A stretch of 51,998 nucleotides of DNA from a virus. The position numbers and the translations under genes were made by a program. The first letter of the stretch is position 1. Every line of letters starts with the position of its first letter. The DNA is taken from the IMG/VR virus record IMGVR_UViG_3300025815_000021, positions 1 to 51,998 of that record; one strand, written 5' to 3'. The notes beneath the pieces are model-generated. The model did no database searches. It had not been told where the DNA came from and saw only the letters and a list, made by a program, of their open reading frames with translations. Shown in pieces: positions 8,629-22,589 of this stretch.

Positions 8629-8644
8629 GTAATAAAGGAGAAAA

Positions 8645-10524: not shown

Positions 10525-10618
10525 AAGTGAATACCATATATGGACATATAGGCTTAAATGTGAAAATTGTGGAGCAGGTTTTAAAAATAGGAAACATGAT
10601 AGGGAGCATAAATGTTGA
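10517..10618 (+). CDS. 33-aa zinc-finger micro-protein (GTG start)
   Basis: GTG start after AAAGGAAAAA. The peptide contains CENCGAGF and then HDREHKC, a CxxC...H...C arrangement that could hold zinc. It overlaps the preceding stop and the next start. Probably a coupled micro-protein. Confidence 0.55.
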   Translation: MAKSEYHIWTYRLKCENCGAGFKNRKHDREHKC

Positions 10619-11093: not shown

Positions 11094-11102
11094 AAAAAAC
11101 CT

Positions 11103-11130
11103 GTAACCTTTTTAAAGATAGGTAGTCTAA
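11103..11130 (+). promoter_or_regulatory. ECF-type promoter P3, leaderless
   Basis: GTAACC 11103-11108, 16-bp spacer, GTCTAA 11125-11130. The ATG at 11136 begins 6 bp after the -10 box with no ribosome site, so the transcript should be leaderless. This case pins the likely start point of all promoters of this class. Confidence 0.8.
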
Positions 11131-11135
11131 TAAGT

Positions 11136-11540: not shown

Positions 11541-12126
11541 TAATACAGTGAAACCAAAATCTGAAACACTTTACAAAACAGAAGATGTTTCAGACAAAAT
11601 GAAAATTAGACAAAAGAATATTGAAAATGCTCAAAAGCTTTTAGACAAGTATGGGTATTTTGGTGGTAAACGACTATTGGGCAAAAATGAGAATGGTACA
11701 GAAGTATGGATTTCTTTTAAAGCTACCGATAAAACTATAGAAATTGACTGCACACACGATATGTGGAGTGTTATGCCTGAAAATGGTGGAGAGTATGCTG
11801 CTGAAAGAGCTAGTTATTTCTTGACTAAGCCTATTAGTAAAGAAACTACATTTTCTTATTATGATGGCGATCGAGGTAATGTTCGTAGACATGGAATGAT
11901 AACCAAAAATACATTGTTACATTTAGATAGAATCATTGATGAATGCGAGAGGTTTACTAGAAGTAACCAAACACCACCTAGAGATATTTATAGGTTACTT
12001 GCGTGGAATATTTTTAGTAGTACACACAATGATAGCTACACTTACCCTGCAACTAATTGGGATTTTTGTGCAGATATTCAAGGGTACACAAGTCCTGAAG
12101 GATATTACTTTACAGGTCAAATCTAA
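11527..12126 (+). CDS. unknown protein
   Basis: 199 aa. Starts at ATG 11527 after AAGGAGAATT, overlapping the acetyltransferase by 14 bp. Tryptophan- and aromatic-rich segments (THDMWSVMPENGGEYAAE, LAWNIFSSTHNDSYTYPATNW) suggest a globular enzyme, but I recognise no catalytic motif. Co-transcription with acetyltransferase and kinase-like genes suggests a small modification pathway. Confidence 0.65.
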   Translation: MINTSNTVKPKSETLYKTEDVSDKMKIRQKNIENAQKLLDKYGYFGGKRLLGKNENGTEVWISFKATDKTIEIDCTHDMWSVMPENGGEYAAERASYFLTKPISKETTFSYYDGDRGNVRRHGMITKNTLLHLDRIIDECERFTRSNQTPPRDIYRLLAWNIFSSTHNDSYTYPATNWDFCADIQGYTSPEGYYFTGQI

Positions 12127-12132
12127 TAAGTA

Positions 12133-12987
12133 ATGGGTAATAGAATCAACAAAGCTTTAAGTAAATCTTGGGAAGAGATCGAACATCTCTTCCCAAATAC
12201 TTATTTTGAAGATTACCGAAAAAACGCAATAAGAATAAAAAGCGACACTAACATAAATTTTGCATATAAAAATTACTTTATAAGAGTACCCTACAAAGAA
12301 CTATCAGTATTCTTTAACAGACAAGCAGAATATAACAATATACAACTTGTCAACAGCCAATTAGAATTGACACCTCTTCCTGTTTACTACAATATCCAAA
12401 CTGGTCTCATGGTTAATATAAGAACTTCGCCTGAAATATATTTAGACGAAAAATTTATTGATACAGAATCATTTAATAATTGCGTTAAAAACTTGAATAC
12501 ACTCAATGGATCTGGACTAGATGGTGCTAATGCTTTCAATTATGAAATAGCATTTGCTTATTTTAGGACACAAAACCATATATTAGATGAATATATAATG
12601 TGGGCGGAAAAATTTTACAACAGTTTTTTTGCTACTGTTGATAAAAATAGATTAGAGTTTTCTCACAATGATCCAGATTTTAGAAATTTTACAATAACAA
12701 ATAATATAATTGACTTTGAATATTCTGGAATGTCTCCAGTATTATCAGATCTAAGTAATATGATCTCTATGTATTACAGTTCAAGTATTGTTAAAAAATA
12801 TTTAGTTAATATTAAAGCACCAAATAAAGAAATGGAACCATTAACAATATTTTGGCTTTTATTTTGGGGTATGTGGGGACTTTCTAAAGATCAAGAAACT
12901 ATATCAGACAAAAACTATTTTATAAGAGCAGGTAAATTATTTGACAGAGGAATTACTAGATTAGATCGTTTTAGACAAAATCTTTAA
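12133..12987 (+). CDS. choline-kinase/APH-type phosphotransferase
   Basis: 284 aa. FSHNDPDFRNFT (about residues 176-187) is the Brenner-type catalytic loop (HxDxxxxN) with HND in place, and IIDFEYSG (about 192-199) is the following DFE metal-binding motif of choline kinases and LicA-like enzymes. The N-terminal lobe (KNYFIRVPYKE) is short. In this family the enzyme transfers phosphate from ATP to choline, ethanolamine or an antibiotic. It could alter host surface phosphocholine or phospholipid precursors. A perfect 12-bp hairpin lies in its first codons. Confidence 0.75.
   Translation: MGNRINKALSKSWEEIEHLFPNTYFEDYRKNAIRIKSDTNINFAYKNYFIRVPYKELSVFFNRQAEYNNIQLVNSQLELTPLPVYYNIQTGLMVNIRTSPEIYLDEKFIDTESFNNCVKNLNTLNGSGLDGANAFNYEIAFAYFRTQNHILDEYIMWAEKFYNSFFATVDKNRLEFSHNDPDFRNFTITNNIIDFEYSGMSPVLSDLSNMISMYYSSSIVKKYLVNIKAPNKEMEPLTIFWLLFWGMWGLSKDQETISDKNYFIRAGKLFDRGITRLDRFRQNL
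12168..12196 (+). promoter_or_regulatory. perfect hairpin inside start of kinase-like gene
   Basis: TTGGGAAGAGAT (12168-12179) pairs fully with ATCTCTTCCCAA (12185-12196) around a 5-nt loop, at codons 12-22 of the gene. In RNA it could slow translation or attenuate transcription. Confidence 0.5.
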
Positions 12988-13160
12988 GGTAAATCATCCT
13001 CAGTTAATTTGTAAAAAATTACATGAAAGTTTGCGTGTGAAGAAATAGCTTTTATTTTTTTGTTTTTCTTTCTAAGCTTCCCATATTTTGCATAATACAT
13101 TTTGTTATTACTAACCATACCTGCAGACATTTTGCCTAGATAACTTTGTAAATCGTACAT
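12984..13160 (-). CDS. 58-aa basic protein next to inverted repeat
   Basis: Starts MYDLQSYLGKMSAGMVSNNK. Its ATG lies on the inner edge of the right inverted-repeat copy, so its promoter would have to lie inside the repeat. TATTTA stands 6 bp before the ATG, and no Shine-Dalgarno is seen. The central segment is lysine-rich. It converges with the kinase-like gene, overlapping by 4 bp. Function unknown. Confidence 0.55.
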   Translation of the reverse strand: MYDLQSYLGKMSAGMVSNNKMYYAKYGKLRKKNKKIKAISSHANFHVIFYKLTEDDLP

Positions 13161-13257
13161 AAGTAATAAATATAACATAACCCCCTACCCCATTACAACT
13201 TATAGATGTTAAATTATTGTTAAATGAAGGGGGGTACCCTATAAATTTCACGAGGAC
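13159..13257. repeat. right copy of 99-bp inverted repeat
   Basis: Reverse complement of 1-99 with one mismatch (CCCTATAAAT here against CCCAATAAAT in the reversed left copy). It contains the palindrome GGGTACC and a C-rich run on one strand. Confidence 0.95.
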
Positions 13258-13306
13258 CCGCCTTTGTGAAAAATAATTCACAATCACACAATTTTGTGAA
13301 AGTATC

Positions 13307-13328
13307 TGACTCTTTTTAGGCATAATGA
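13307..13328 (+). promoter_or_regulatory. second-class element C1
   Basis: TGACTC 13307-13312, 10-bp gap, TAATGA 13323-13328, then an ATATATA run. Confidence 0.5.
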
Positions 13329-13397
13329 AATAAAAATATATATATAAACTTTAGATCCAGATAAAAATATGGATCTCTACTTTAGGTTTAGATTGTC

Positions 13398-13420
13398 TGA
13401 CTAATTTAAAGTCTTAATGA
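13398..13420 (+). promoter_or_regulatory. second-class element C2
   Basis: TGACTA 13398-13403, 11-bp gap, TAATGA 13415-13420, then A-rich and ATATAT. Confidence 0.55.
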
Positions 13421-13438
13421 AATAAAAAAATATATATC

Positions 13439-13461
13439 TGACTATTTTTTGATCATAATGA
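13439..13461 (+). promoter_or_regulatory. second-class element C3
   Basis: TGACTA 13439-13444, 11-bp gap containing GATC, TAATGA 13456-13461. Confidence 0.55.
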
Positions 13462-13554
13462 GATAAAATATGTACTACTTTCTTTCTCCTGGATCATTAT
13501 CTGGATCAACATATATATATGATTCATAAGTAAAAAAAATAAAATAAAAACTAT

Positions 13555-13582
13555 GTAACCTTTTTAATATGATATAGTCTAA
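13555..13582 (+). promoter_or_regulatory. ECF-type promoter P4
   Basis: GTAACC 13555-13560, 16-bp spacer, GTCTAA 13577-13582. Drives 13611 through AAAGGAG. Confidence 0.8.
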
Positions 13583-13610
13583 ATAGTACAGACAAAACAA
13601 AGGAGTAATA

Positions 13611-13832
13611 ATGACAAAAATAAAAACATATAAGCCAAACAAAAACAGTTGGAAATATAATTTTGTTGCGAATCTAGATAATGGAAAAGTAGTTGATTAT
13701 ATAACAATTGTTACAGAATATGGGAAAGAATATGCCGAAGATTGTTTTAGAAGATCTTTAGAAGAACAATTAGAACGATTTAACGCTGATTGGTTTTCTT
13801 TTCATTTGGTTAGTAAGACAAAGGAGAAATAA
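13611..13832 (+). CDS. unknown small protein
   Basis: 73 aa, starts MTKIKTYKPNKNSWKYNFVA. A beta-rich N-terminus precedes an amphipathic helix (YAEDCFRRSLEEQLERF). First gene of the small-gene block after the inverted repeat. The next ATG overlaps its stop by one base. Function unknown. Confidence 0.65.
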   Translation: MTKIKTYKPNKNSWKYNFVANLDNGKVVDYITIVTEYGKEYAEDCFRRSLEEQLERFNADWFSFHLVSKTKEK

Positions 13833-13975
13833 TGGCTATATATGCAAAGTTTGACTTCAATGTTTATATTGATGTTCAAGACATACATGATAGTAATGAG
13901 ATTAAAGACGCATTAATTGACTGGTGGACTAGCACAACAGACTTACCAGATTATGAAATATTAGAGGAGGAATAA
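13832..13975 (+). CDS. 47-aa acidic protein
   Basis: Starts MAIYAKFDFNVYIDVQDIHD and ends EILEEE. AAAGGAGAAATA precedes the ATG, and start and stop both overlap neighbours by one base. The pattern (beta strand, helix with DWW, acidic tail) recurs in other small genes of this block. Confidence 0.65.
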   Translation: MAIYAKFDFNVYIDVQDIHDSNEIKDALIDWWTSTTDLPDYEILEEE

Positions 13976-14271
13976 TGGCTATTAAAGACACTTTAGATGA
14001 GTATTCATTTGTTAGTAGATTTTTAGAACGCAGAGATAATTTTAGCCCAAACGCATTACAAACACTTTATCATTATTTTGATGATCTAAGCGAAGGTATA
14101 GGAGAGGATATAGAATTTGATCCTATAGCAATTTGTTGCGATTGGACAGAGTACGAAAACGAAAAAGAGTGCCTGGAAGATTATGACTTTGTAGAAGACA
14201 TGGAAGAAATAAGAACAAGTACAGTTGTATTGCCAGTCCATGGCGGGTCAATACTTGTTCAAAATTATTAA
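13975..14271 (+). CDS. phage small protein with FDPIAICCDW motif
   Basis: 98 aa. The segment EFDPIAICCDWTEYEN is a motif I recognise from a widespread phage hypothetical family of unknown role. N-terminal helix and acidic centre. GAGGAGGAAT supplies the ribosome site inside the previous gene. Early expression from P4 is likely. Confidence 0.7.
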   Translation: MAIKDTLDEYSFVSRFLERRDNFSPNALQTLYHYFDDLSEGIGEDIEFDPIAICCDWTEYENEKECLEDYDFVEDMEEIRTSTVVLPVHGGSILVQNY

Positions 14272-14278
14272 AAACTAT

Positions 14279-14307
14279 GTAACCTTTAGACCTCTTCGGA
14301 GGTCTAA
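14279..14307 (+). promoter_or_regulatory. ECF-type promoter P5
   Basis: GTAACC 14279-14284, 17-bp spacer, GTCTAA 14302-14307. AGACCTC-TTCG-GAGGTCT spans the spacer and most of the -10 box, a perfect hairpin or operator. Confidence 0.8.
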
Positions 14308-14324
14308 GAGTTAAAGGAGAAAAA

Positions 14325-14585
14325 ATGATACAAGTTAAAAGTCCAAACACAGGACAGGTGCTAAACATAGAAGGAGAGTTATTAAACCTCGTAGAAGGGG
14401 TAAATTACATTGAAAATGCTTATTATGATCAAGAAGGATTCACACAAGACAATATTTTAAAAGCTGTCTTTAAAGTCCTGGAAATTGAAAGATTAAGAGG
14501 CATTTGGGATGGAACATATAATATTGATACTTTTATTAGAGAAAATGTTTTTGACATAATCTCTAGAGAAATGGAGAAAGCATAA
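14325..14585 (+). CDS. unknown small protein
   Basis: 86 aa, starts MIQVKSPNTGQVLNIEGELL, with an acidic helical C-terminus. Ribosome site AAAGGAGAAAAA. It stands alone between promoter P5 and a hairpin terminator. Function unknown. Confidence 0.65.
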   Translation: MIQVKSPNTGQVLNIEGELLNLVEGVNYIENAYYDQEGFTQDNILKAVFKVLEIERLRGIWDGTYNIDTFIRENVFDIISREMEKA

Positions 14586-14590
14586 ACAAA

Positions 14591-14611
14591 TGGGGATCGG
14601 AAAGATCCCCA
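14591..14611 (+). terminator. hairpin terminator candidate
   Basis: TGGGGATC pairs with GATCCCCA around GGAAA, followed by ACTTTC. The T tract is weak. Confidence 0.55.
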
Positions 14612-14625
14612 ACTTTCAAAAAATC

Positions 14626-14648
14626 TGACTATTTTTGATCAATAATGA
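14626..14648 (+). promoter_or_regulatory. second-class element C4
   Basis: TGACTA 14626-14631, 11-bp gap, TAATGA 14643-14648. It lies directly before the ribosome site of 14671 with no ECF-type promoter between. This is the best evidence that the element is itself a promoter. Confidence 0.6.
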
Positions 14649-14670
14649 ATAAATATATAAGGAGAATTAA

Positions 14671-14859
14671 ATGGCGTGGGAAGAAATATCACTAAATGAA
14701 CAGAATTATGTTTTGTTTAGACACGAACATAATGTTGTTTTAAATGAAAAAGAATACCTATTAAGCGAAGATGGGAGTTTAAGAACCTTCACTTATGAAG
14801 ATGGAATTAAATTTGCTGAAAGCATAGGTTTAAGCGAAGAAAATTTAGAACACCTGTAA
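14671..14859 (+). CDS. unknown small acidic protein
   Basis: 62 aa, starts MAWEEISLNEQNYVLFRHEH. Ribosome site AAGGAGAATTAA. The only small gene with a second-class element alone in front of it. Function unknown. Confidence 0.65.
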   Translation: MAWEEISLNEQNYVLFRHEHNVVLNEKEYLLSEDGSLRTFTYEDGIKFAESIGLSEENLEHL

Positions 14860-14884
14860 CCTTTTTCTCTTTTGTGAAGTCTAA
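14856..14884 (+). promoter_or_regulatory. ECF-type promoter P6
   Basis: GTAACC 14856-14861, 17-bp spacer, GTCTAA 14879-14884. The -35 box overlaps the stop codon of the preceding gene. Confidence 0.8.
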
Positions 14885-14907
14885 TTAGTACAACACAAAG
14901 GAGAAAA

Positions 14908-15267
14908 ATGAACAAAGAGATTACTTACAAAGAATGGGTGGATACATATAAGCCAATACTAAATAAAAATAAGTATGGGCAGAATTATGTTTCTGTACAG
15001 GGCGAAGAAAGTTATGGCGCATTCGATGTATATGACGATGATGACAAAGAAATGTTACAGAACACAGAGTACCAATATATTTGGACTTTAACTAATGAAG
15101 ATAATCATGATTATCTTTTAAGTGGCGTCCACTATGTCAACAGAATGGAGTATTACATTTGTGAAGTGCCATTTGCCGAAGGAGAAGATATCACGATAGA
15201 CATGGGCTGTTGTTGTGATAGCGATGAAGGCGAAAGTTGTGAAGATTGCACAGAGGAGGAAGAATGA
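14908..15267 (+). CDS. unknown acidic protein with cysteine-rich tail
   Basis: 119 aa. Acidic throughout, ending in a cluster MGCCCDSDEGESCEDCTEE that could bind metal. The centre (YIWTLTNEDNHDYLLSGVHYVNRMEYYICEVPF) resembles a small beta-barrel seen in phage hypothetical proteins. It precedes two further coupled genes. Function unknown. Confidence 0.65.
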   Translation: MNKEITYKEWVDTYKPILNKNKYGQNYVSVQGEESYGAFDVYDDDDKEMLQNTEYQYIWTLTNEDNHDYLLSGVHYVNRMEYYICEVPFAEGEDITIDMGCCCDSDEGESCEDCTEEEE

Positions 15268-15425
15268 AAAAATTTACAGTGTTTGAAAATCTAACTTATG
15301 GATATGAGATAGAGGCAAAAGACGAAGACCACGCAGAAGAAATCTTTTATGGAGAGGCTGAAGGTTTAGTAGGCAAGGGTTATCTATGTGAGGGTACAGA
15401 AATAACAATAGTAGAGGAGGAATAA
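15264..15425 (+). CDS. 53-aa acidic protein
   Basis: Starts MKKFTVFENLTYGYEIEAKD and ends TIVEEE. GAGGAGGAAGA precedes the ATG, and both ends overlap neighbours. The beta-alpha-beta layout with an E-rich tail resembles the gene at 13832. Confidence 0.65.
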   Translation: MKKFTVFENLTYGYEIEAKDEDHAEEIFYGEAEGLVGKGYLCEGTEITIVEEE

Positions 15426-15634
15426 TGGAGTACGAATACACAGCAAGTATCAATTTAAAACTAGACAGCACAGCGCAGAAATTTTTAAGTGCGCATGAAT
15501 TAGGACCTGATGTCTTAGACATAGAGCCTGACCAGGCTGATGTTTGGCTAGCTTTACATAACGAAATACATTCATGGTTAAATGATTTGGGTATTGAGGT
15601 AGAGTTAGATTTGAAAGATGTAGTAGCTCAATGA
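15425..15634 (+). CDS. unknown small protein
   Basis: 69 aa, starts MEYEYTASINLKLDSTAQKF. Acidic, helical centre with DVWLALHNEIHSWL. GAGGAGGAAT ribosome site inside the previous gene. Function unknown. Confidence 0.65.
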   Translation: MEYEYTASINLKLDSTAQKFLSAHELGPDVLDIEPDQADVWLALHNEIHSWLNDLGIEVELDLKDVVAQ

Positions 15635-15702
15635 TTGGGCTACTCATCAGATTCTTAGAAGGGCAGCCTAAGAAAAAACGAAAACCAAATAAAAAAAACT
15701 GA
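15631..15702 (+). CDS. possible 23-aa basic peptide
   Basis: The ATG overlaps the previous stop (ATGA). A hydrophobic start MIGLLIRFLEG is followed by a lysine-rich tail. It may be translated by coupling, but it is so short that chance is possible. Confidence 0.3.
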   Translation: MIGLLIRFLEGQPKKKRKPNKKN

Positions 15703-15723
15703 CTAATTCATAATTCTTAATGA
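15700..15723 (+). promoter_or_regulatory. second-class element C5
   Basis: TGACTA 15700-15705, 12-bp gap, TAATGA 15718-15723, then GATATATA. Confidence 0.55.
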
Positions 15724-15793
15724 GAATATAGATATATAAAAAAAAAGATCTTCAAGTAGATCCAAATAGGATCAAAAAAAATATTTAAAATAT

Positions 15794-15821
15794 GTAACCT
15801 TTTCGTATCTAAGTAGTCTAA
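15794..15821 (+). promoter_or_regulatory. ECF-type promoter P7
   Basis: GTAACC 15794-15799, 16-bp spacer, GTCTAA 15816-15821, serving 15849. Confidence 0.8.
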
Positions 15822-15848
15822 TAAGTGTAAGCAAACAAAGGATATGAA

Positions 15849-15980
15849 ATGATTATACATGATATGGCTTCAGGTAAAGTTACTGAGACTACACCTGAAG
15901 AGTTTATGAAACACATAGCTCCAAATATCGAAGAGTTTAAAAAACTCCAAGAAAAATTTGCCAGCTACGAAGAGGAGTAA
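15849..15980 (+). CDS. 43-aa helical protein
   Basis: Starts MIIHDMASGKVTETTPEEFM and continues in a helix EEFKKLQEKFASYEEE. AAAGGATATGAA lies upstream. Precedes 15985 by 4 bp. Function unknown. Confidence 0.55.
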   Translation: MIIHDMASGKVTETTPEEFMKHIAPNIEEFKKLQEKFASYEEE

Positions 15981-15984
15981 ATAC

Positions 15985-16155
15985 ATGAGAGACATAACAG
16001 AATATATTGATGATTATGTAGAAGATAATTATGGACATACTAATTGGGGATATGCGAGTACATATTCCCCAGTTGAATTAAATTCAAATGATCAATACGA
16101 TATGGAACTTAATAATACGATTGTTATTTGGTACAACTCAATAGAAGAAGAATAA
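15985..16155 (+). CDS. 56-aa acidic protein
   Basis: ATG 15985 lies 12 bp after an AGAGGAG site inside the previous gene. Starts MRDITEYIDDYVEDNYGHTN and is rich in D, E, Y and W. Function unknown. Confidence 0.55.
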   Translation: MRDITEYIDDYVEDNYGHTNWGYASTYSPVELNSNDQYDMELNNTIVIWYNSIEEE

Positions 16156-16167
16156 TATAAAAACTAT

Positions 16168-16196
16168 GTAACCTTTTTATCTTTTTAAAAGTCTAA
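16168..16196 (+). promoter_or_regulatory. ECF-type promoter P8
   Basis: GTAACC 16168-16173, 17-bp spacer, GTCTAA 16191-16196, serving 16217 through AAAGGAG. Confidence 0.8.
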
Positions 16197-16216
16197 GTAG
16201 TAACAAAGGAGAAAAT

Positions 16217-16480
16217 ATGAAAGTTAAAGATGTAATTGAGTATTTAAAAGAATACAAAGAAGATGAAGAAATACTTATTGCATGGTTAGATTACGAGATG
16301 TTTGATGACCATGAAGATGTTTCTTACGAAGCATGGGTACAAACCTGTAGAGACTGGATAGATAGCGACCATAGTTTATATGAGCTAGTTTCTAATTACT
16401 ATTTAGTTAGAGACAGAGACTTAGCTAACAGAGAGAAGGCACAAGCTAATCAAAAAATTAGGCAAAAGCCAAAAATATAA
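16217..16480 (+). CDS. unknown small protein
   Basis: 87 aa. MKVKDVIEYLKEYKEDEEILIAW resembles the start of small phage proteins often found near regulatory genes. Acidic first two thirds, basic tail (QKIRQKPKI). Single gene between P8 and P9. Confidence 0.65.
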   Translation: MKVKDVIEYLKEYKEDEEILIAWLDYEMFDDHEDVSYEAWVQTCRDWIDSDHSLYELVSNYYLVRDRDLANREKAQANQKIRQKPKI

Positions 16481-16488
16481 AATACTAT

Positions 16489-16516
16489 GTAACCTTTTTG
16501 AAGGTAGATAGTCTAA
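16489..16516 (+). promoter_or_regulatory. ECF-type promoter P9
   Basis: GTAACC 16489-16494, 16-bp spacer, GTCTAA 16511-16516. The predicted start coincides with the first helix of the structured RNA at 16521. Confidence 0.8.
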
Positions 16517-16520
16517 GTAT

Positions 16521-16800
16521 TGTAAGCGAGAACGCATAAGGTTGGAAACTCTAGCTTAGAACTAGAGGCGTGAAATACCATATAAACAATGTAATTCCAG
16601 TGTGGTACGCTAATCGCTTACATAAAGCTACTTATATTATAGAACTAGCTGACCTCTCGCTTAGAGTACTCAAAGTATGATAACGAACTAAGGCATACAC
16701 GAAGTCAGTTGTCTCAGACTTGTAGGTAGCTTGTAGCACATAAGGTTAATATCGTAATAAATTGCAAGCCCTTGTGCGTTACAAGCTATCTATTCAAACA
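16521..16800 (+). ncRNA. structured RNA, two domains, related to 17.8-kb RNA
   Basis: No ORF fills this stretch. TGTAAGCGA (16521-16529) pairs with TCGCTTACA (16614-16622) and closes a domain with a CTCTAG-CTTAGAA-CTAGAG hairpin, a TGGAA/TTCCA pairing, and a TACCA/TGGTA pairing that would cross it as a pseudoknot. AAGCTACTTA near 16625 can pair with TAGGTAGCTT near 16723. TAGCTTGTAGCACA (from 16727) pairs with TGTGCGTTACAAGCTA (16773-16788), leaving a 2-nt bulge. These arms recur in the 17.8-kb RNA. The RNA ends just before the ribosome site of 16813, so it may be a leader or be processed off. Confidence 0.7.
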
Positions 16801-16812
16801 AAGGAGAAAAAC

Positions 16813-16965
16813 ATGAAAGATCTAGATTTCGTAAACATGATCTTTAATGACTGGAACGAAAATTTGTGTGATAACGATGAAGATAGTGTCAAGTGTCAAG
16901 AACTGAGATATTTAATCTTAGGACTTATGGCGGACACAGTTGAAGGTAAAAAATTATTTAATTAA
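16813..16965 (+). CDS. 50-aa acidic protein downstream of structured RNA
   Basis: ATG 16813 follows AAAGGAGAAAAAC; a longer frame from 16762 runs through the RNA hairpin and is unlikely. Starts MKDLDFVNMIFNDWNENLCD. It could be controlled by folding of the RNA in front of it. Function unknown. Confidence 0.6.
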   Translation: MKDLDFVNMIFNDWNENLCDNDEDSVKCQELRYLILGLMADTVEGKKLFN

Positions 16966-16968
16966 TAT

Positions 16969-16996
16969 GTAACCTTTTACACAATTTGTAGTCTAA
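16969..16996 (+). promoter_or_regulatory. ECF-type promoter P10
   Basis: GTAACC 16969-16974, 16-bp spacer, GTCTAA 16991-16996, serving 17026. Confidence 0.8.
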
Positions 16997-17025
16997 GTTA
17001 TAGAAGCAAAAACAAAGGAGAATAT

Positions 17026-17625
17026 ATGCCAAATGTATGTACGAATACAATATTTATAGAAGGTAACGCAGAGAGTATAGACCTTATATGGAACATGGGA
17101 CAAAGTGAAGGACACGAAGGTCGTTTTAACTTTGAAGACACTTTAGTTAAAACATTTGATTTAGCTAAGTGTTACGCAGTTCCAGAAGAGTTAACTTATA
17201 TACATTGCGGTAGCACAACTATAAATGGCGAACAATTTAATAACTGGAAATATGTAGATAAGACAACAGGAGAAGTTGTACGCTACAACATTCTAGATGG
17301 GAAAGATGACAATATTGAAATGGTTGGTCTTACTGAAGAAGAAGTAGATGAACTAAAAGAGAAATATGGAAGTGAAAACGCTTATGAGTGGACTTACGCT
17401 AATTGGGATACAAAGTGGATAACTGAAGTTGATGTAGACAATGTTGAGTTTGATGAATACAAACCAGACAATTACAAGTCAATGGAGTTTGAAGTTGACA
17501 CAGCGTGGTCGCCACCAGTATCACTTTTACAACACTTATGCGATTGTTATGATTTAAAAATCAGCTGTCGTTGGTGGGAAGAAGGTGGTAACGCAGGTTG
17601 GGAACACTTGCACCCAAATAGTTAA
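17026..17625 (+). CDS. Api92/YubB-like ferredoxin-fold protein
   Basis: 199 aa. It begins MPNVCTNTIFIEGNAESID, and its later blocks YANWDTKWI, FEVDTAWSPPVSLLQHL and RWWEEGGNAGWE match the layout of Api92-like / DUF1281 proteins of phages and plasmids (P-N-w-c-x-N, N-W-G-T-K-W, D-T-A-W-S-P-P). The family has a ferredoxin-like fold and no settled function. It is a single-gene unit behind P10, followed by three hairpins and then the large RNA. Confidence 0.75.
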   Translation: MPNVCTNTIFIEGNAESIDLIWNMGQSEGHEGRFNFEDTLVKTFDLAKCYAVPEELTYIHCGSTTINGEQFNNWKYVDKTTGEVVRYNILDGKDDNIEMVGLTEEEVDELKEKYGSENAYEWTYANWDTKWITEVDVDNVEFDEYKPDNYKSMEFEVDTAWSPPVSLLQHLCDCYDLKISCRWWEEGGNAGWEHLHPNS

Positions 17626-17634
17626 CTAACAAGA

Positions 17635-17662
17635 AGGAGTATTAGTTTTAACATATACTCCT
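17635..17662 (+). terminator. hairpin 1 of three after 17026 gene
   Basis: AGGAGTAT pairs with ATACTCCT around a 12-nt loop. No T tract follows. Confidence 0.5.
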
Positions 17663-17673
17663 ATGTTGCTGAA

Positions 17674-17701
17674 GTAGTGGTAGAGGAAACTCTACCACTA
17701 C
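17674..17701 (+). terminator. perfect GNRA hairpin 2 of three
   Basis: GTAGTGGTAGAG and CTCTACCACTAC form a perfect 12-bp stem closed by a GAAA tetraloop. ATCTCAATTGAGAT follows as a third self-complementary element. Without a T tract, this may be an RNA protein-binding or processing site rather than a terminator. Confidence 0.6.
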
Positions 17702-17734
17702 GAAGATCTCAATTGAGATTAAATAAAAAACTAT

Positions 17735-17763
17735 GTAACCTTTTATACATAGAAGTAGTCTAA
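17735..17763 (+). promoter_or_regulatory. ECF-type promoter P11
   Basis: GTAACC 17735-17740, 17-bp spacer, GTCTAA 17758-17763. The predicted start near 17769 coincides with the first pairing arm of the large RNA. Confidence 0.8.
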
Positions 17764-17769
17764 GTATTG

Positions 17770-18480
17770 TAGACAGCTTAAAGGTAACAGCTGAACAGTT
17801 TTAGTTTAAGTACGAACGCAGACATTAATTGTTTAGAAATAAACAAGCTATCGATAGTTTCAGCCACATGTTTTGCTGTCGTGGAGAAAGTAAGCTCGTT
17901 GCCTTTAAGCTATCTATAAGTAGGTAGCTTGTAGCACATAAGAGAGAGAAGATGACAACTAGGCATAAGCTGTCTCTCTTAGTTCGGTAGTAGGAAGTTG
18001 GAAACGCTACCAATGAACAAGTAAAATCAACTTGTGTGTTACAAGCTATTTATAAAGCCCTCACTTATTAAAGAGAGCCTTGAACGATTAGTAGGGGTAA
18101 GGAAACGCTAATCGGTAGGTAGCTTGTAGCACATACTAATGTTGAAAGAAAGGTTGGAACTCGTGTACAAAACGAGGAAAGGCGATATAAACATACAAAA
18201 CTTCCAGTTTCGTCCACTATGTGTGTGTTACAAGCTATTTATGTTCCACAAATGAAATGAAAGCAAATGGTTGGATAAGTAGGTAGCTCGTAGCACATAG
18301 TAAGGTCTTACAAACTAAGCGAAAGCATTTTGTAATAGGTTTTCTAGGCAACCTCAAACTGTGTGTTACAAGCTACTTATAAAGGATAAGCAAGGGGAAA
18401 TTTGAACTTACTAAACCTTGCCCGATACGAAAGTATTTGGTATATCCAAGTTCTGTAGGTAGCTTGTAGCACATAATAGA
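17770..18480 (+). ncRNA. large ornate non-coding RNA with repeated pairing arms
   Basis: About 710 nt with no credible ORF. AGCTTAAAGGTAAC (17775) pairs with GTTGCCTTTAAGCT (17898-17911). Four later left arms, TAGCTTGTAGCACA or one variant (17934, 18119, 18284, 18461), alternate with three right arms, TGTGTGTTACAAGCTA (18034, 18220, 18360). Left and right arms pair over 14 bp with a conserved 2-nt bulge, whether read left-to-right or right-to-left. The inserts differ and fold separately: AAGAGAGA/TCTCTCTT, GGTAG/CTACC and CGATTAG/CTAATCG with similar 16-nt loops ending GGAAACG, a GCGAAAGC tetraloop, and GCAAGG/CCTTGC. The insert at 18151 shares GGTTGGAA, GGCG, ATATAAACA and TTCCAGT with the 16.5-kb RNA. 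GOLLD and ROOL RNAs are comparable in size and phage location, but I cannot assign this to either. Confidence 0.72.
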
Positions 18481-18493
18481 TCAACAAAAAATC

Positions 18494-18516
18494 TGACTAT
18501 TTCAGATCCATAATGT
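18494..18516 (+). promoter_or_regulatory. second-class element C6
   Basis: TGACTA 18494-18499, 11-bp gap, TAATGT 18511-18516, immediately after the large RNA. Confidence 0.5.
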
Positions 18517-18566
18517 AGTAAAGAATATCTATAAAAATAAAAGATCAAAAAAAAATAAATTTACTT

Positions 18567-18595
18567 GTAACCTTTTTTATTTATTGAGTGTCTAA
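18567..18595 (+). promoter_or_regulatory. ECF-type promoter P12
   Basis: GTAACC 18567-18572, 17-bp spacer, GTCTAA 18590-18595, serving 18622. Confidence 0.8.
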
Positions 18596-18621
18596 TAGGT
18601 ACAGACAATAAAGGAGAGAAA

Positions 18622-18855
18622 TTGTTAGGAACACATAACTCAATAGACGAATTAGATAATCTAGTAGGACTAACTATTACTGGTTGGAAAGAAGTAACGA
18701 TAGATTGGGGACACTCATTTATCATGCTCAAGACTGATCAAAAGTTTGATAGTGGCGAACCTGTTTATCTATTACTATCACAAGACGCTGAATTAAACGA
18801 AGGCGGTTATTTAGGTTTTGTCGATAGCGACTTTGAAAAAATGATAAAGGAGTAA
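18622..18855 (+). CDS. unknown small acidic protein (TTG start)
   Basis: 77 aa with a TTG start fixed by AAAGGAGAGAAA. Starts MLGTHNSIDELDNLVGLTIT. The pattern of short beta strands (GWKEVTIDWGHSFIMLKTD, GEPVYLLLSQDAEL) suggests a small beta-barrel. Coupled to 18859. Function unknown. Confidence 0.6.
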   Translation: MLGTHNSIDELDNLVGLTITGWKEVTIDWGHSFIMLKTDQKFDSGEPVYLLLSQDAELNEGGYLGFVDSDFEKMIKE

Positions 18856-18858
18856 TAA

Positions 18859-19053
18859 ATGGGATTAAAAGAGATAATACCTAATATAACTGATGAAGAA
18901 ATTGTATTAGTAAATAAGATCGAAAATACAAGAGAACGCATTAATGAAGCTAGAGAGTATGGAGATGATACACAATCTTTATACGATAGAATGCGCGAAC
19001 TTAAAAAAGATCTTGAAGTAGCTAAAGCAAAAAGAAGAGCTACAGAAAACTAA
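18859..19053 (+). CDS. small coiled-coil protein
   Basis: 64 aa. From residue 16 onward it is a charged heptad-like helix (NKIENTRERINEAREYG ... RMRELKKDLEVAKAKRR). AAGGAGTAATAA precedes the ATG. Probably forms a dimer; role unknown. Confidence 0.6.
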   Translation: MGLKEIIPNITDEEIVLVNKIENTRERINEAREYGDDTQSLYDRMRELKKDLEVAKAKRRATEN

Positions 19054-19070
19054 AAAATTTTAGATTATGT

Positions 19071-19099
19071 GTAACCTTTTATGGTTACGCATAGTCTAA
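19071..19099 (+). promoter_or_regulatory. ECF-type promoter P13
   Basis: GTAACC 19071-19076, 17-bp spacer, GTCTAA 19094-19099. GTAACC and GGTTAC form an inverted repeat from -35 into the spacer. Confidence 0.8.
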
Positions 19100-19128
19100 G
19101 TAGTACAAGCAATAAAGGAGAAAACATT

Positions 19129-19557
19129 ATGGCAACTAGAGGATTATATAAATTCTATAGTGATACAGAACAATTAGAAAATAATAGACCTAATGCGACT
19201 ATATATCGTCATTGGGATAACTATTTAGAAGGTGGGGGAGCTGACCTTGTAGAGTTTTTAACAACTCTTAGAGATAGCGACTTTGATAACAGATTTCTCG
19301 ATAGCTCATATTTAGCAAGTAAGTTTGTAGTTTACTTAGCTAGAGAGTTTGCTAATGATTGGAATGAAGAGCCACTTGATTTTCTAAGTGTAGGGGTTGT
19401 ACACAACGATGATGACTGGGGAGCGGAATACACCTATCACATAGTAAGTGAGATAGGAGTAGACAACATACCAAAAGTCTTTGTTGATAGTTACAATTAC
19501 GACAAAACAGAATTATCAGAAGCATTTAAACAAGAACAAGAACAAGAAGTTTTATAA
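19129..19557 (+). CDS. unknown acidic protein
   Basis: 142 aa from ATG 19129, which has AAAGGAGAAAACATT before it; an earlier in-frame start lies inside the promoter. The start MATRGLYKFYSDTEQLENNR and IYRHWDNYLEGGGADLVEFL recall a phage hypothetical family with an 'RG-Y-F ... HWDGYP' pattern. It ends in a Q/E-rich tail. Single gene between P13 and a strong terminator. Confidence 0.65.
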   Translation: MATRGLYKFYSDTEQLENNRPNATIYRHWDNYLEGGGADLVEFLTTLRDSDFDNRFLDSSYLASKFVVYLAREFANDWNEEPLDFLSVGVVHNDDDWGAEYTYHIVSEIGVDNIPKVFVDSYNYDKTELSEAFKQEQEQEVL

Positions 19558-19580
19558 ACTACCTTGTTGTTAGTGAAGAG

Positions 19581-19612
19581 ATCAGGGGAAGAAATATCCC
19601 CTGATTTTTTTT
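19581..19612 (+). terminator. intrinsic terminator
   Basis: ATCAGGGGA pairs with TCCCCTGAT around a short loop, followed by eight T. A textbook Rho-independent terminator. Confidence 0.85.
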
Positions 19613-19621
19613 GGATCTTTC

Positions 19622-19645
19622 TGACTAATTTAAATTTGATAATGA
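19622..19645 (+). promoter_or_regulatory. second-class element C7
   Basis: TGACTA 19622-19627, 12-bp gap, TAATGA 19640-19645, then ATATATA. Confidence 0.55.
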
Positions 19646-19685
19646 TGATAGAAATATATATAGAAATAAAAATCTTAAAAATTAT

Positions 19686-19714
19686 GTAACCTTTTAAAGG
19701 TTATTGAAGTCTAA
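19686..19714 (+). promoter_or_regulatory. ECF-type promoter P14
   Basis: GTAACC 19686-19691, 17-bp spacer containing GGTTA, GTCTAA 19709-19714. Confidence 0.8.
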
Positions 19715-19743
19715 GTATCACAAGCAATAAAGGAGAATAAAAA

Positions 19744-20067
19744 ATGGGTTATCAAACAGCTCAAGCGTTAGCGTTAATGGATACGATTAACTTAAAAAAT
19801 CAAATAAAAAATCATTTATTAGGTAACTTTTATCCACGACACGATGTTCGCTTAGTATCGGTATGCGTAGAAGCGCTAGAAATTTATAGAGACAATATTG
19901 GAGATATTGAGTATGGATTTTTAGATATATGGGATACCTATATCGAATTACCAGATGAGCTTGAATATAAGAACTCTAATAAAATATCGGTAGGAGATTG
20001 TATTGAGACACTTAGATTAAGTGCATGGGTAGACATCTTTTACTCAGAATTTTTAGAAGAGGAATAA
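19744..20067 (+). CDS. unknown protein
   Basis: 107 aa, starts MGYQTAQALALMDTINLKNQ. Helical and acidic toward the C-terminus. AAGGAGAATAAAA before ATG. Single-gene unit between P14 and P15. Confidence 0.65.
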   Translation: MGYQTAQALALMDTINLKNQIKNHLLGNFYPRHDVRLVSVCVEALEIYRDNIGDIEYGFLDIWDTYIELPDELEYKNSNKISVGDCIETLRLSAWVDIFYSEFLEEE

Positions 20068-20085
20068 AAAAAATTAGATCTTCGT

Positions 20086-20114
20086 GTAACCTTTTTAGGT
20101 TACATGAAGTCTAA
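20086..20114 (+). promoter_or_regulatory. ECF-type promoter P15
   Basis: GTAACC 20086-20091, 17-bp spacer, GTCTAA 20109-20114. TGTAACC and GGTTACA form an inverted repeat inside the promoter. Confidence 0.8.
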
Positions 20115-20137
20115 GTAGGGAGAACAAAAGGAGATAT

Positions 20138-20386
20138 ATGAACGACTTAAAAGAACTATCTATACAAGAAATAGCGAGTTTAATCTATATGGATTGGACT
20201 ATGGAAAAAGTTAGCTATTCAGCTCGACCTTATCTAGACGCTATGACTTATCTCGATTCAATTGACGATAAGTATATGTTAGATAGTGGAAAATCTATTG
20301 TTACATATTTTCTATCGAACGCTAGTGCATGGCGTGGCGATGTAGCTAAAGAAGTAAAAGCTGAATTAAAGAAGAGAATAAAATAA
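20138..20386 (+). CDS. unknown small helical protein
   Basis: 82 aa, starts MNDLKELSIQEIASLIYMDW. Helical, basic end (ELKKRIK). Ribosome site AAAAGGAGATAT. Single gene between P15 and P16. Confidence 0.65.
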   Translation: MNDLKELSIQEIASLIYMDWTMEKVSYSARPYLDAMTYLDSIDDKYMLDSGKSIVTYFLSNASAWRGDVAKEVKAELKKRIK

Positions 20387-20405
20387 AAAATATTTTAGAT
20401 TTCAT

Positions 20406-20434
20406 GTAACCTTTTATGGTTACATGAAGTCTAA
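20406..20434 (+). promoter_or_regulatory. ECF-type promoter P16
   Basis: GTAACC 20406-20411, 17-bp spacer, GTCTAA 20429-20434. ATGTAACC and GGTTACAT form an 8-bp inverted repeat. Confidence 0.8.
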
Positions 20435-20461
20435 GTATTACAAGCTAACAAGGAGAATATT

Positions 20462-20716
20462 ATGTTCGTACCACGAACTAGAAAAATCGATACTAAAGAT
20501 AGTAGCGTTATTGATGTAATTTATTACATGAGTACATTTAAAGAACAAACACTATTTGTACAATTTAACAATGGTGCAATGTATACCTATGATGATGTAC
20601 CTTTTAAACATTTTAAAAGTTTAAGAAGTGCTAATCGTAGAAATAAAAGTGTAGGAAGTTTATTTAACGACTTAGTTAAAAAAAGTGGTTATGCGTATAG
20701 GAAGATTTCACGATGA
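20462..20716 (+). CDS. KTSC-domain protein
   Basis: 84 aa. TLFVQFNNGAMYTYDDVPFKHF followed by SVGSLFNDLVKKSGYAYRKI matches the KTSC domain (beta-rich 'l-V-F-nG-vY-Y-dVP' plus 'S-hG-fFn--I-----y'). KTSC domains occur beside RNA-binding and lysyl-tRNA synthetase-like proteins and in many phages; nucleic acid binding is assumed, not proven. The next ATG overlaps its stop (ATGA). Confidence 0.75.
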   Translation: MFVPRTRKIDTKDSSVIDVIYYMSTFKEQTLFVQFNNGAMYTYDDVPFKHFKSLRSANRRNKSVGSLFNDLVKKSGYAYRKISR

Positions 20717-20886
20717 AGTCTTCTTATGCAAGAGAACTACACAAAGCAACAACTATTCTTTTAAATACACTTATGGTATTAGGAGAGCCATTCGAATTTG
20801 ACAGCGATTTAATATGCGCTGATGAATTATTTGATGAGTGCTTATGCCCCAATTGTATTTATAAGAGTGTTAAAGGAGAAATATGA
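20713..20886 (+). CDS. 57-aa protein with C-terminal CxxC
   Basis: Starts MKSSYARELHKATTILLNTL. An acidic middle leads to CLCPNC near residue 45. Coupled to the KTSC gene (ATGA) and to the next gene, whose ribosome site AAAGGAG lies inside it. Function unknown. Confidence 0.6.
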   Translation: MKSSYARELHKATTILLNTLMVLGEPFEFDSDLICADELFDECLCPNCIYKSVKGEI

Positions 20887-21050
20887 GTGAGCCATTTTTA
20901 TACAATACAAAGTTATACGAAATTTTAGATATTTCTGGTAATGGAGTATTTAACACACTAGATATCATATTGTATTGGTGTTATTTCGTAACAGTTGTAT
21001 TTTTTTACAAAACTGTTGTTAGCAAAGTAATTAAGAAGAGTGGCAAATAA
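20883..21050 (+). CDS. small single-pass membrane protein
   Basis: 55 aa. The segment TLDIILYWCYFVTVVFFYK forms one membrane span, followed by a basic tail KVIKKSGK, so the C-terminus should be cytoplasmic. ATGA overlap upstream. The end of the gene forms one side of a terminator hairpin. Could be a holin-like or superinfection-exclusion protein, but nothing assigns it. Confidence 0.6.
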   Translation: MSEPFLYNTKLYEILDISGNGVFNTLDIILYWCYFVTVVFFYKTVVSKVIKKSGK

Positions 21051-21068
21051 GCTACTCTTCTTAATTTT
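21033..21068 (+). terminator. intrinsic terminator overlapping CDS end
   Basis: AAGAAGAGT and ACTCTTCTT form a stem with a further GC pair, followed by AATTTTTA. Confidence 0.75.
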
Positions 21069-21104
21069 TACAGCTGATCTAATTTAATTATTTCGGATCT
21101 AATC

Positions 21105-21128
21105 TGACTATTTTAGATTTCGTAATGA
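21105..21128 (+). promoter_or_regulatory. second-class element C8
   Basis: TGACTA 21105-21110, 12-bp gap, TAATGA 21123-21128, then AT-rich. Confidence 0.55.
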
Positions 21129-21167
21129 TTAAAAAAATATATGCAAAAAATAAGTTATAAAATACCT

Positions 21168-21196
21168 GTAACCTTTTAGCGTTATAGGGTGTCTAA
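21168..21196 (+). promoter_or_regulatory. ECF-type promoter P17
   Basis: GTAACC 21168-21173, 17-bp spacer, GTCTAA 21191-21196, serving 21214. Confidence 0.8.
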
Positions 21197-21213
21197 TCGT
21201 AAAGGAGAAAAAA

Positions 21214-21336
21214 ATGATTATAGGAATGTTAGATAAATTCTTAAAAGAATTAAAAAAAGAACAACAACTTAAAGAACACATTGAAAGAGAAAACGATAAC
21301 CCTGATAGCGTTTTTTATACTGGCGATAAAAAATAA
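21214..21336 (+). CDS. 40-aa charged helical micro-protein
   Basis: Starts MIIGMLDKFLKELKKEQQLK, an amphipathic helix with alternating K and E. AAAGGAGAAAAAA before ATG. It has its own promoter. Function unknown. Confidence 0.6.
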   Translation: MIIGMLDKFLKELKKEQQLKEHIERENDNPDSVFYTGDKK

Positions 21337-21344
21337 AATTAGGT

Positions 21345-21373
21345 GTAACCTTTTTACTTTTAAAGGTGTCTAA
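21345..21373 (+). promoter_or_regulatory. ECF-type promoter P18
   Basis: GTAACC 21345-21350, 17-bp spacer, GTCTAA 21368-21373, serving 21400. Confidence 0.8.
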
Positions 21374-21399
21374 TAAGTACAAGCTAACAAGGAGAAAAT

Positions 21400-21579
21400 A
21401 TGACCGATAAAGAGTTCTTTAGTGCTATTAGTGGCGTGGAAGATACTGAATTAACTGGCGATGAGCTTATTGATTGCGGTAACTGTATGGTACGAATACC
21501 TAAAGAAATATTGCAAGACGCGGGAGATTACATTTTTTTAAATGAATACACTTGCGAAAATTGTAACGAGCCATATTAA
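21400..21579 (+). CDS. 59-aa zinc-binding acidic protein
   Basis: CGNC near residue 26 and CENC near 52 form a two-pair zinc ribbon in an acidic protein that starts MTDKEFFSAISGVEDTELTG. AAGGAGAAAAT ribosome site. Followed after 11 bp by another zinc-ribbon gene. Confidence 0.65.
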   Translation: MTDKEFFSAISGVEDTELTGDELIDCGNCMVRIPKEILQDAGDYIFLNEYTCENCNEPY

Positions 21580-21590
21580 AGGAGTAAATA

Positions 21591-21923
21591 ATGGACATGT
21601 ATGATATTGAAGACAGCGTCATTGAAAAAATAGCGCTAGATATTTTAAAATCTAAACTCGAATGGAATAGAGCTGAAGATTTTAGAACATTGTTTAGTTA
21701 CGATAGTAAAAATGTAGAAGTTACATTTTCATTATCAGCTACGATTGATGAAACTGATTTAGAAGTATGGAATGATAGAAATAACTATTACCCCAATTGT
21801 TACAGCTGTAACAAAGTCCTACTGGATAGCCATGACGAAATCGATTGTATTGATGATGAGCCATTCTGTAGGGAGTGCTATAGCAAACAAGAAGCAAAAC
21901 AAGAATTAGCAATTGATAATTAA
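21591..21923 (+). CDS. zinc-ribbon acidic protein
   Basis: 110 aa. CYSCNKVLLDSHDEIDCIDD and CRECYSK give a CxxC ... CxxC treble-clef pattern near the C-terminus. The N-terminus MDMYDI is shared with the protein at 22681, which suggests distant kinship or a common start. Ends in a terminator-like hairpin. Confidence 0.65.
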   Translation: MDMYDIEDSVIEKIALDILKSKLEWNRAEDFRTLFSYDSKNVEVTFSLSATIDETDLEVWNDRNNYYPNCYSCNKVLLDSHDEIDCIDDEPFCRECYSKQEAKQELAIDN

Positions 21924-21940
21924 TTCAATTGCTAATTCTT
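21901..21940 (+). terminator. 15-bp hairpin at CDS end
   Basis: AAGAATTAGCAATTG pairs perfectly with CAATTGCTAATTCTT. No T run follows, so it may act in RNA stability or as a bidirectional pause. Confidence 0.55.
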
Positions 21941-21957
21941 AAAATGTATTATATAAT
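21929..21957 (+). promoter_or_regulatory. sigma70-like promoter
   Basis: TTGCTA, 17-bp spacer, TATAAT (21952-21957), before the gene at 21983. One of the few small genes here without the ECF-type element. Confidence 0.5.
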
Positions 21958-21982
21958 TAGAAAAAACAACATAGGAGAAAAA

Positions 21983-22243
21983 ATGAACGCAAACTTAATT
22001 ACTGAGAATGTAGAGCAACAAAAAAAAGAACAGCTTAAAAAATTAGCTAGTCATTTTAATTACTCTACATGTGATGAGTTAGAAAAGCCATTACCTGAAT
22101 TTGAGCAATTCATAATTAGAGATGGATTTGTTTTTCAATTAGATACAATAATTGAAAATAATTCTAAAACTTGTCCAAAAAAACACAATAGCGATACAGC
22201 AGTGTATAAATTATTTAATGGCGCTATCGGATACGATAGTTAA
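21983..22243 (+). CDS. paralogous small protein A
   Basis: 86 aa from ATG 21983 after TAGGAGAAAAA. FQLDTIIENNSKTCPKKHNS and AVYKLFNGAIGYDS at the C-terminus are closely matched by the protein at 23611. Conserved cysteine and histidines (TCPKKHN) may bind metal. Function unknown. Followed by a strong terminator. Confidence 0.7.
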   Translation: MNANLITENVEQQKKEQLKKLASHFNYSTCDELEKPLPEFEQFIIRDGFVFQLDTIIENNSKTCPKKHNSDTAVYKLFNGAIGYDS

Positions 22244-22264
22244 GTAAATATAATACATGGACTA

Positions 22265-22294
22265 AAGGCGGGTATTTATTACCCGCCTTTTTTT
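22265..22294 (+). terminator. intrinsic terminator
   Basis: AAGGCGGGTA and TACCCGCCTT form a 10-bp stem with a 5-nt loop and a T tract. Confidence 0.88.
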
Positions 22295-22303
22295 ATTTAA
22301 TTC

Positions 22304-22326
22304 TGACTAATTCTGTTCCTTGATGA
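22304..22326 (+). promoter_or_regulatory. second-class element C9
   Basis: TGACTA 22304-22309, 11-bp gap, TGATGA 22321-22326. Confidence 0.5.
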
Positions 22327-22402
22327 TAAAAGAAATAAATATAAATTTTAAAAAAGTTAGATCGTAATTTTTGATTCTAAAACCCCATGAAATCTAATCA
22401 TC

Positions 22403-22426
22403 TGACTATTTTTTTTTCGGTAATGA
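22403..22426 (+). promoter_or_regulatory. second-class element C10
   Basis: TGACTA 22403-22408, 12-bp T-rich gap, TAATGA 22421-22426. A LexA-type box lies 31 bp downstream. Confidence 0.55.
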
Positions 22427-22456
22427 GCAAAGTTATAAATACCATTTTGATCGTTT

Positions 22457-22472
22457 TCGAACACCTGTTCGA
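22457..22472. promoter_or_regulatory. LexA-type SOS box 1
   Basis: TCGAAC-ACCT-GTTCGA is a perfect match to the Gram-positive/mycobacterial LexA operator. It sits 31 bp downstream of element C10, where a bound repressor could block it. Confidence 0.65.
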
Positions 22473-22560
22473 TTTGTGAAAATTTTCACATTCTCGTAAA
22501 AATCTAAATGTAAAGTTTAGGTTTAGATTTTACCAATTAAAAAAAAATTAAAAAAAATAT

Positions 22561-22589
22561 GTAACCTTCTTGTATTCAATGCGGTCTAA
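22561..22589 (+). promoter_or_regulatory. ECF-type promoter P19
   Basis: GTAACC 22561-22566, 17-bp spacer, GTCTAA 22584-22589. Confidence 0.75.

Follow-up and report, generated by a model that had tools for sequence, protein, structure and literature searches.

The locus and its surroundings

The window, that is, the whole stretch of 51,998 nt of viral DNA that was analysed, contains at 17769-18475 an array made of a single divergent 149-nt hairpin domain (H1) followed by complementary arms in the order A-B-A-B-A-B-A, with folded inserts between them (Table 1). The two strands of the H1 outer helix, 17767-17788 and 17898-17919, are 86% complementary, and the final arm A (18455-18475) has no B arm downstream of it. 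There is no plausible open reading frame (ORF) in the array, the sole candidate being a 62-aa minus-strand ORF with a TTG start, and the array folds far better than its shuffled counterparts (-216.9 kcal/mol, z = -6.9; none of 20 shuffles reached so low an energy). GAAA tetraloops are present in the inserts, among them AGC-GAAA-GC near 18316 and UAC-GAAA-GUA near 18423. The first-pass annotation, made from the sequence alone, had described alternating pairing arms, a divergent first pair, GNRA tetraloops and two similar 16-nt loops within a stretch that lacks an ORF and starts at a promoter-like sequence. All of these claims held: seven arms are found at 17920-18475, and the two loops, UAGGAAGUUGGAAACG and UAGGGGUAAGGAAACG, belong to a more widespread motif described below. 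Its proposal of a single 710-nt RNA is not supported as a description of one family, the architecture being modular and very variable in length and content.

The window has 19 plus-strand copies, spread over 8409-22561, of a promoter-like sequence, GTAACC-N-GTCTA, and one of them directly precedes the array. These ECF-like copies are mostly located just 5' of small ORFs, and the sequence is essentially missing from the other loci considered here, with the exception of L075. Sigma-70 promoters and simple terminators were counted in the window region at or below the level of shuffled sequence. A repeated intergenic element around ATCTGACTATTT...GATC (window 13437, 14617 and the 18497 region) has one copy just 3' of arm A4, and could conceivably be a phage-specific transcript end. 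Among the genes of the window phage are three for ParB-like proteins (1409-2675, minus strand; 9651-10214, plus strand) and two phosphoadenosine phosphosulfate reductase-like genes on the minus strand (92-1168 and 36486-37364), the latter possibly serving as auxiliary metabolic or DNA-modification genes.

The window holds another arm-module RNA at approximately 16519-16793, directly 5' of an ORF.

Table 1. Positions of the elements of the array and of the second arm-module RNA in the window
Feature	Position	Strand	Remarks
ECF-type promoter-like sequence GTAACC-N-GTCTAAG	17735..17766	+	Consensus only, without transcript evidence; just 5' of array
H1 domain: outer helix GUAGACAGCUUAAAGGUAAC / GUUGCCUUUAAGCUAUCUAU enclosing conserved core UUAGUUUAAGUACG	17769..17917	+	Homologues in L036, L107, L113, L115, L163, L172
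Arm A1	17920..17940	+	
Module A1-B1, 92 nt, with stem-loop GGUAG-UAGGAAGUUGGAAACG-CUACC	17941..18032	+	89% identity to L166; loop motif
Arm B1	18033..18053	+	
Module B1-A2, 61 nt, with CGAUUAG-UAGGGGUAAGGAAACG-CUAAUCG	18054..18114	+	98-100% identity in L158, L117, L088, L067
Arm A2	18115..18135	+	
Module A2-B2, 86 nt	18136..18221	+	98-99% identity in L089, L093, L100
Arm B2	18222..18242	+	
Module B2-A3, 36 nt	18243..18278	+	100% identity in L166; occupies A-B interval in L032, L124
Arm A3 GUAGGUAGCUCGUAGCACAUA	18279..18299	+	
Module A3-B3, 60 nt, with GAAA tetraloop	18300..18359	+	100% identity (60/60 bases) in L166, L087
Arm B3	18360..18380	+	
Module B3-A4, 74 nt, with GAAA tetraloop	18381..18454	+	83-88% identity in L079, L109, L039, L116
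Arm A4, without a following B	18455..18475	+	Predicted competitor for B1 (P 0.30)
Second RNA: 86-type module inside different stem UUGUAAGCGA / UCGCUUACA	16519..16625	+	Right after promoter copy 16489; up to 94% identity to modules of L020, L151, L110
Second RNA: short b arm GCUACUUAU	16627..16635	+	
Second RNA: 84-type module	16636..16721	+	99% identity in L086; other phages have it in both interval types (A-B, B-A)
Second RNA: arm A of leader unit	16722..16742	+	
Second RNA: 30-nt module of leader unit	16743..16772	+	100% identity in L096
Second RNA: arm B of leader unit	16773..16793	+	ORF with ATG at 16814 downstream

Arms, modules and their distribution among phages

A scan of IMG/VR with a 16-mer of arm A returned at least 118 stretches, and nearly all of the A arms so found were followed on their own strand by a B arm at a distance of 13-150 nt. 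At least 185 arm clusters in 161 loci, representing 134 distinct arrays, were assembled from IMG/VR scans. Their carriers are many uncultured tailed phages, and 157 of the 161 loci are connected through shared proteins. The window phage and L075 form a separate, siphovirus-like lineage, with protein identity to the others no higher than 44% in the comparisons printed. Judged by the portal protein, the isolates most closely related to the main group are Streptomyces phages, at only ~22% identity, and the host is therefore left open. A search through the genomes of 84,980 species of bacteria and archaea did not find arm A, and arm B had one match only in bacterial genomes, a phage-like MAG contig with terminase and other genes of these phages. 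Phage-isolate and plasmid records searched for the arms gave no match or matches at chance level only, and the arm sequences were not found in the literature searched.

The genomic setting is fairly uniform, with 115 of 129 loci situated between two co-directional genes (median gap 402 nt). Forty-nine loci end no more than 45 nt from an ATG preceded by a Shine-Dalgarno (SD) sequence, and in L166 and L145 units occupy three or four gaps of one operon. Arrays reach ~880 nt in length, but many elements consist of one 100-nt unit only, placed between a stop codon and the SD that follows. Terminator-like structures close about a dozen loci and are strong in L107 and L109. For a transcription attenuator, terminator and antiterminator helices with a strand in common would be expected. 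In L022, L040, L073, L077 and L106, and not in other loci, the outer part of arm B can pair either with A or with CUAGAUAG, which is followed by a U tract; A:B pairing and the terminator-like stem are mutually exclusive in such loci, because the B outer arm is the 5' strand of that stem. A DUF1281/Api92-like gene is found upstream of the RNA in many loci. The possibility of a single conserved regulated gene downstream was rejected: neighbouring genes vary, and the inconstancy of the gene just downstream argues against regulation of one target. At a greater distance, 1-1.6 kb downstream, about 70 loci (L041 and L084, for example) carry a conserved gene pair: one product is a MoxR-like AAA ATPase, and the other combines a HELGH motif with a VWA-like end.

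Paired with each other, arm A (GUAGGUAGCUUGUAGCACAUA) and arm B (UGUGUGUUACAAGCUAUYUAU) give a 21-bp helix without interruption, in which approximately four positions are G.U. The conserved 2-nt bulge proposed in the first-pass annotation is not supported, since the 'TG' 5' of B pairs with the 'UA' 3' of A (as U.G and A-U). Across 113 distinct arm pairs, standard pairing is found in 96.4% of cells, and changes on both sides relative to the commonest pair are found in 162 cells, with 60 further pair types. Whole-arm shuffles, used as a control, gave 86.7% pairing, 25 +/- 6 both-sided changes (maximum 40) and 36 further pair types, and slid arm registers gave 19-48% pairing and 28-43 both-sided changes. 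The counts take in related sequences, and the events are thus not independent. Both-sided changes are far above those in shuffles (162 versus 25), and it follows that selection acts on the RNA. The outer 9-11 bp of the helix are nearly invariant; the inner 12-bp stems come in 56 distinct forms, 52 of which have no more than one unpaired position. Arm order is strict, neighbouring arms alternating 507 times against ~19 exceptions. A short arm is present 5' of most A arms; the short-arm patterns (b and a) were defined by complementary words, of which ~0.01 per 200 nt are expected from base composition by our own estimate.

The intervals between arms are filled by ~164 structured module families, 68 of them with more than one member. 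A given family can occupy an A-B or a B-A interval and keeps its strand in both, and for 40-45 of 150 families the neighbours are of more than one kind. Each module of the window array, from H1 through B3-A4, and those of the second RNA at 16519-16793 recur with 83-100% nucleotide identity in other phages; in the comparisons printed, the proteins that these phages share with the window phage reach no more than 44% identity. Covariation extends into the modules themselves, with both-sided compensatory change in 11 of 50 predicted pairs of H1 (5 sequences), at 6 of 7 pairs of the hairpin GUARGAG-stem-CCCUGUU-stem-ACUGAAA (28 sequences) and at 4 of 10 pairs of a third family, the UUCAUWA hairpin. 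The 16-17-nt loop UAGG-N-GAAACG, to which the two loops of the window array belong, is carried on 11 distinct stem-loops with different complementary stems, all inside arrays, and some modules have T-loop-like hairpins. Other than the arms, no constant core is common to all arrays.

What is shown by comparison, then, is a structured RNA on the strand of the neighbouring genes, with alternating complementary arms and a different folded module in each interval; that covariation establishes a structured, modular RNA is very likely. Complementary changes between arm copies had been read at first pass as evidence of RNA folding, a reading that the absence of homologues with compensatory changes would have refuted; homologues with extensive covariation are present in at least ~160 viral loci, and the reading stands. 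The simplest account of the shared modules is that they would be swapped between phages through homologous recombination at the constant arms. A single-strand annealing protein family is encoded at 87 loci, the window included, and this annealing protein, present in many such phages, would be a plausible agent assisting the exchange. Both steps are inferred.

Two other sets of noncoding stretches were observed in these phages. Beside the arm arrays of L145 (~1980-2320) and L166 (~2640-3080) is another long conserved noncoding stretch without an Rfam match, perhaps one more large structured RNA that these phages carry. Additional long noncoding stretches in L166 (278-505) and L145 (452-730) share the ending AAAACGATACCCCCTTAAAACAGGT, and might represent yet another RNA.

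Predicted alternative pairing of the arms

In the partition function of the window array the pairs A1:B1, A2:B2 and A3:B3 have probabilities of 0.64, 0.94 and 0.84, and A4:B1 has a probability of 0.30. Folding of eleven arrays of other phages in which the arms are ordered b, A, B, a indicates that the probability of A:B tracks that of b:a, and that the probability of b:A tracks that of B:a. The predicted ensembles of L009, L083 and L105 are mixed, that of L024 is almost wholly b:A plus B:a, and those of the other bABa arrays are A:B plus b:a. The linkage of the two states is partly forced, since one strand pairs once, and the probabilities derive from an energy model without tertiary contacts. 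Because all arms resemble one another over their outer 9-11 nt, the strands b, A, B and a are predicted to form a four-way junction capable of branch migration, and the model predicts that arms swap partners through this mobile junction, between A:B plus b:a and b:A plus B:a. The near invariance of the outer arms would follow from such an exchange, because any change must suit several partners.

Independent support comes from a small number of three-strand covariations. In L147, where the b, A and B arms read GCUAUCAAC, GUUGAUAGC and GCUAUUAAU, and in L035/L171, L034/L098 and L049 an atypical A arm is matched by an equally atypical upstream b strand, with the B strand matched also in some. These amount to about four independent cases, and in most of them p is ~0.007-0.06 when random stretches from the contig concerned serve as the control. 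Two features of the window array itself count against the junction model: the b-strand of H1 is too near A1 for the two to pair, and A4 lacks a B. The first-pass suggestion that each arm can pair forward or backward is thus supported by folding and by few covariations; of its further idea that the RNA could switch or multimerise, partner exchange is predicted by folding and multimers remain inferred.

Relation to known systems and possible functions

GOLLD and ROOL are large, elaborately folded noncoding RNAs of phages and bacteria, of unknown function and possibly multimeric (PMC12286853). They are often encoded near tRNA islands, and a homo-oligomeric cage is a further criterion for them. 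The arm arrays are likewise large, elaborately folded phage RNAs for which multimers may be inferred, but they have no Rfam match and no tRNA islands, and they consist of alternating like arms and exchangeable modules, with many single-unit versions between genes. No Rfam 15 covariance model was matched at gathering score in the window and eight related loci; the GOLLD and ROOL models were unmatched at gathering in the window and in the related loci tested; and at E<=5 a search of window 17600-18700 gave no match to GOLLD and nothing of interest from Rfam. Assignment to GOLLD, ROOL or any Rfam family was rejected for want of a covariance-model match, which bears out the initial impression that the layout fits neither GOLLD nor ROOL. 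Neither in the window nor in those related loci that were scanned did ARAGORN call a tRNA, and the idea of tRNA or tmRNA modules was rejected on this ground despite the T-loop-like hairpins. A 78-nt minus-strand element in L046 (7438-7515) has tmRNA-like ends (E 1.7e-14, below gathering) and is tRNA-like, uncalled by ARAGORN. A hammerhead, considered for the CTGATGA words near arrays, was rejected: the words are in upstream sequence, without hammerhead layout or Rfam support.

Three other systems invite comparison. Integron attC sites have conserved imperfect inverted arms around a variable middle, in cassette arrays with shuffled contents; the selection on them is on folded single-stranded DNA with extrahelical bases, and an integrase gene is present. 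The phage arrays share the imperfect inverted arms, variable middle and shuffled contents; however, their modules are folded RNA elements rather than genes and keep their strand, and their arms are longer and alternate, pair in an unbroken helix with G.U at fixed places, and covary at the RNA level. CRISPR arrays alternate constant repeats with variable elements and are transcribed as one RNA. Constant arms alternate with variable elements in the phage arrays also, and a single transcript is probable in the absence of expression data; here, in contrast, the arms alternate in orientation and pair with one another, and the 'spacers' are not targets but members of conserved families with structure. 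Among the proteins scanned, none pointed to a cas gene. T7-type intercistronic RNase III hairpins and the put antiterminators of HK022 are short fixed hairpins in early phage operons or leaders. They resemble the arm elements as structured RNA between genes or in leaders of early phage operons, but lack the universal long helix, the ~164 kinds of insert and the alternating arrays. To our knowledge, a natural RNA system in which constant arms alternate and the folded modules between them can be exchanged has not been described, and we therefore rate the arm-module RNA as a new kind.

The reading that we favour is that of a cis-acting RNA with exchangeable modules and a branch-migrating junction, and it is held with slightly more doubt than conviction, its function being inferred without expression data. 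Comparison shows that a b (short) or B (long) arm is followed by an A or a (short) arm and that the long arms form the 21-bp helix; under this reading the junction of b, A, B and a would work in cis within early phage operons, either as a switch or as a platform for processing. The modules would bind partners, for which there are no binding data, and these would bias which arms pair; the outcome would take effect where the element ends on its 3' side, at an SD or a terminator. The reading is limited in that an SD or a terminator borders the element at some loci only.

Nearly as likely is a trans-acting scaffold, according to which the arrays are stable noncoding RNAs like GOLLD and ROOL in spirit, with modules that dock mutually or with host factors and arms that may pair between molecules into multimers. 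In its favour are the very ordered fold and the arrays of up to ~880 nt, the terminators that end some arrays (L107, L109 and the L022-like loci), the tertiary-type motifs in modules (GAAA tetraloops, T-loop-like hairpins and the recurrent 16-nt loop) and the lack of conservation of the downstream gene. Against it are the many single 100-nt units fitted tightly between stop codon and SD, the lack of any core constant across arrays beyond the arms, the failure to match known ornate RNAs in Rfam, and the absence of nearby tRNAs.

It is unlikely that the elements are only intercistronic processing or stability elements, in which an RNase III-type cut of the two-turn double-stranded helix would separate early mRNAs, or the helix would shield mRNA ends, with modules as fillers that shape the hairpin. 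Unbroken 21-bp helices between co-directional genes, in successive gaps of one operon and near SDs, are consistent with this explanation, for which there are no cleavage data; it leaves unexplained why the outer half of the helix is near-invariant in sequence, why module sequences are conserved and why there are long alternating arrays. Least credible is a DNA-level cassette system, with attC-like arms that serve for recombination or protein binding and an RNA fold that is incidental, which would account for modules of up to 100% identity shared in shuffled order between constant arms by divergent phages, but is contradicted by the RNA pairing retained in the arms with G.U at set positions, by the covariation of inner stems and of the modules themselves, by the constant strand of modules even where the surrounding arms are swapped, and by the failure to find an integrase among the window proteins scanned.

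Returning to the favoured cis-acting RNA, it can be extended to a bolder reading, one that more probably fails than holds, if by a narrow margin: a combinatorial RNA system in which ~160 kinds of folded module are recombined between universal arms, yielding branch-migrating four-way junctions whose choice of partners would control early phage genes or act on host machinery. If this is true, these phages would possess a natural RNA architecture built from interchangeable parts that are shuffled among distant phages, with predicted swapping of partners. The arm arrays offer a ready-made large comparative set for strand-exchange RNA switching and for modular evolution at the level of RNA, the arm sequences are a simple handle for detection in other viromes, and the conserved modules may provide a route to the host components that they touch.
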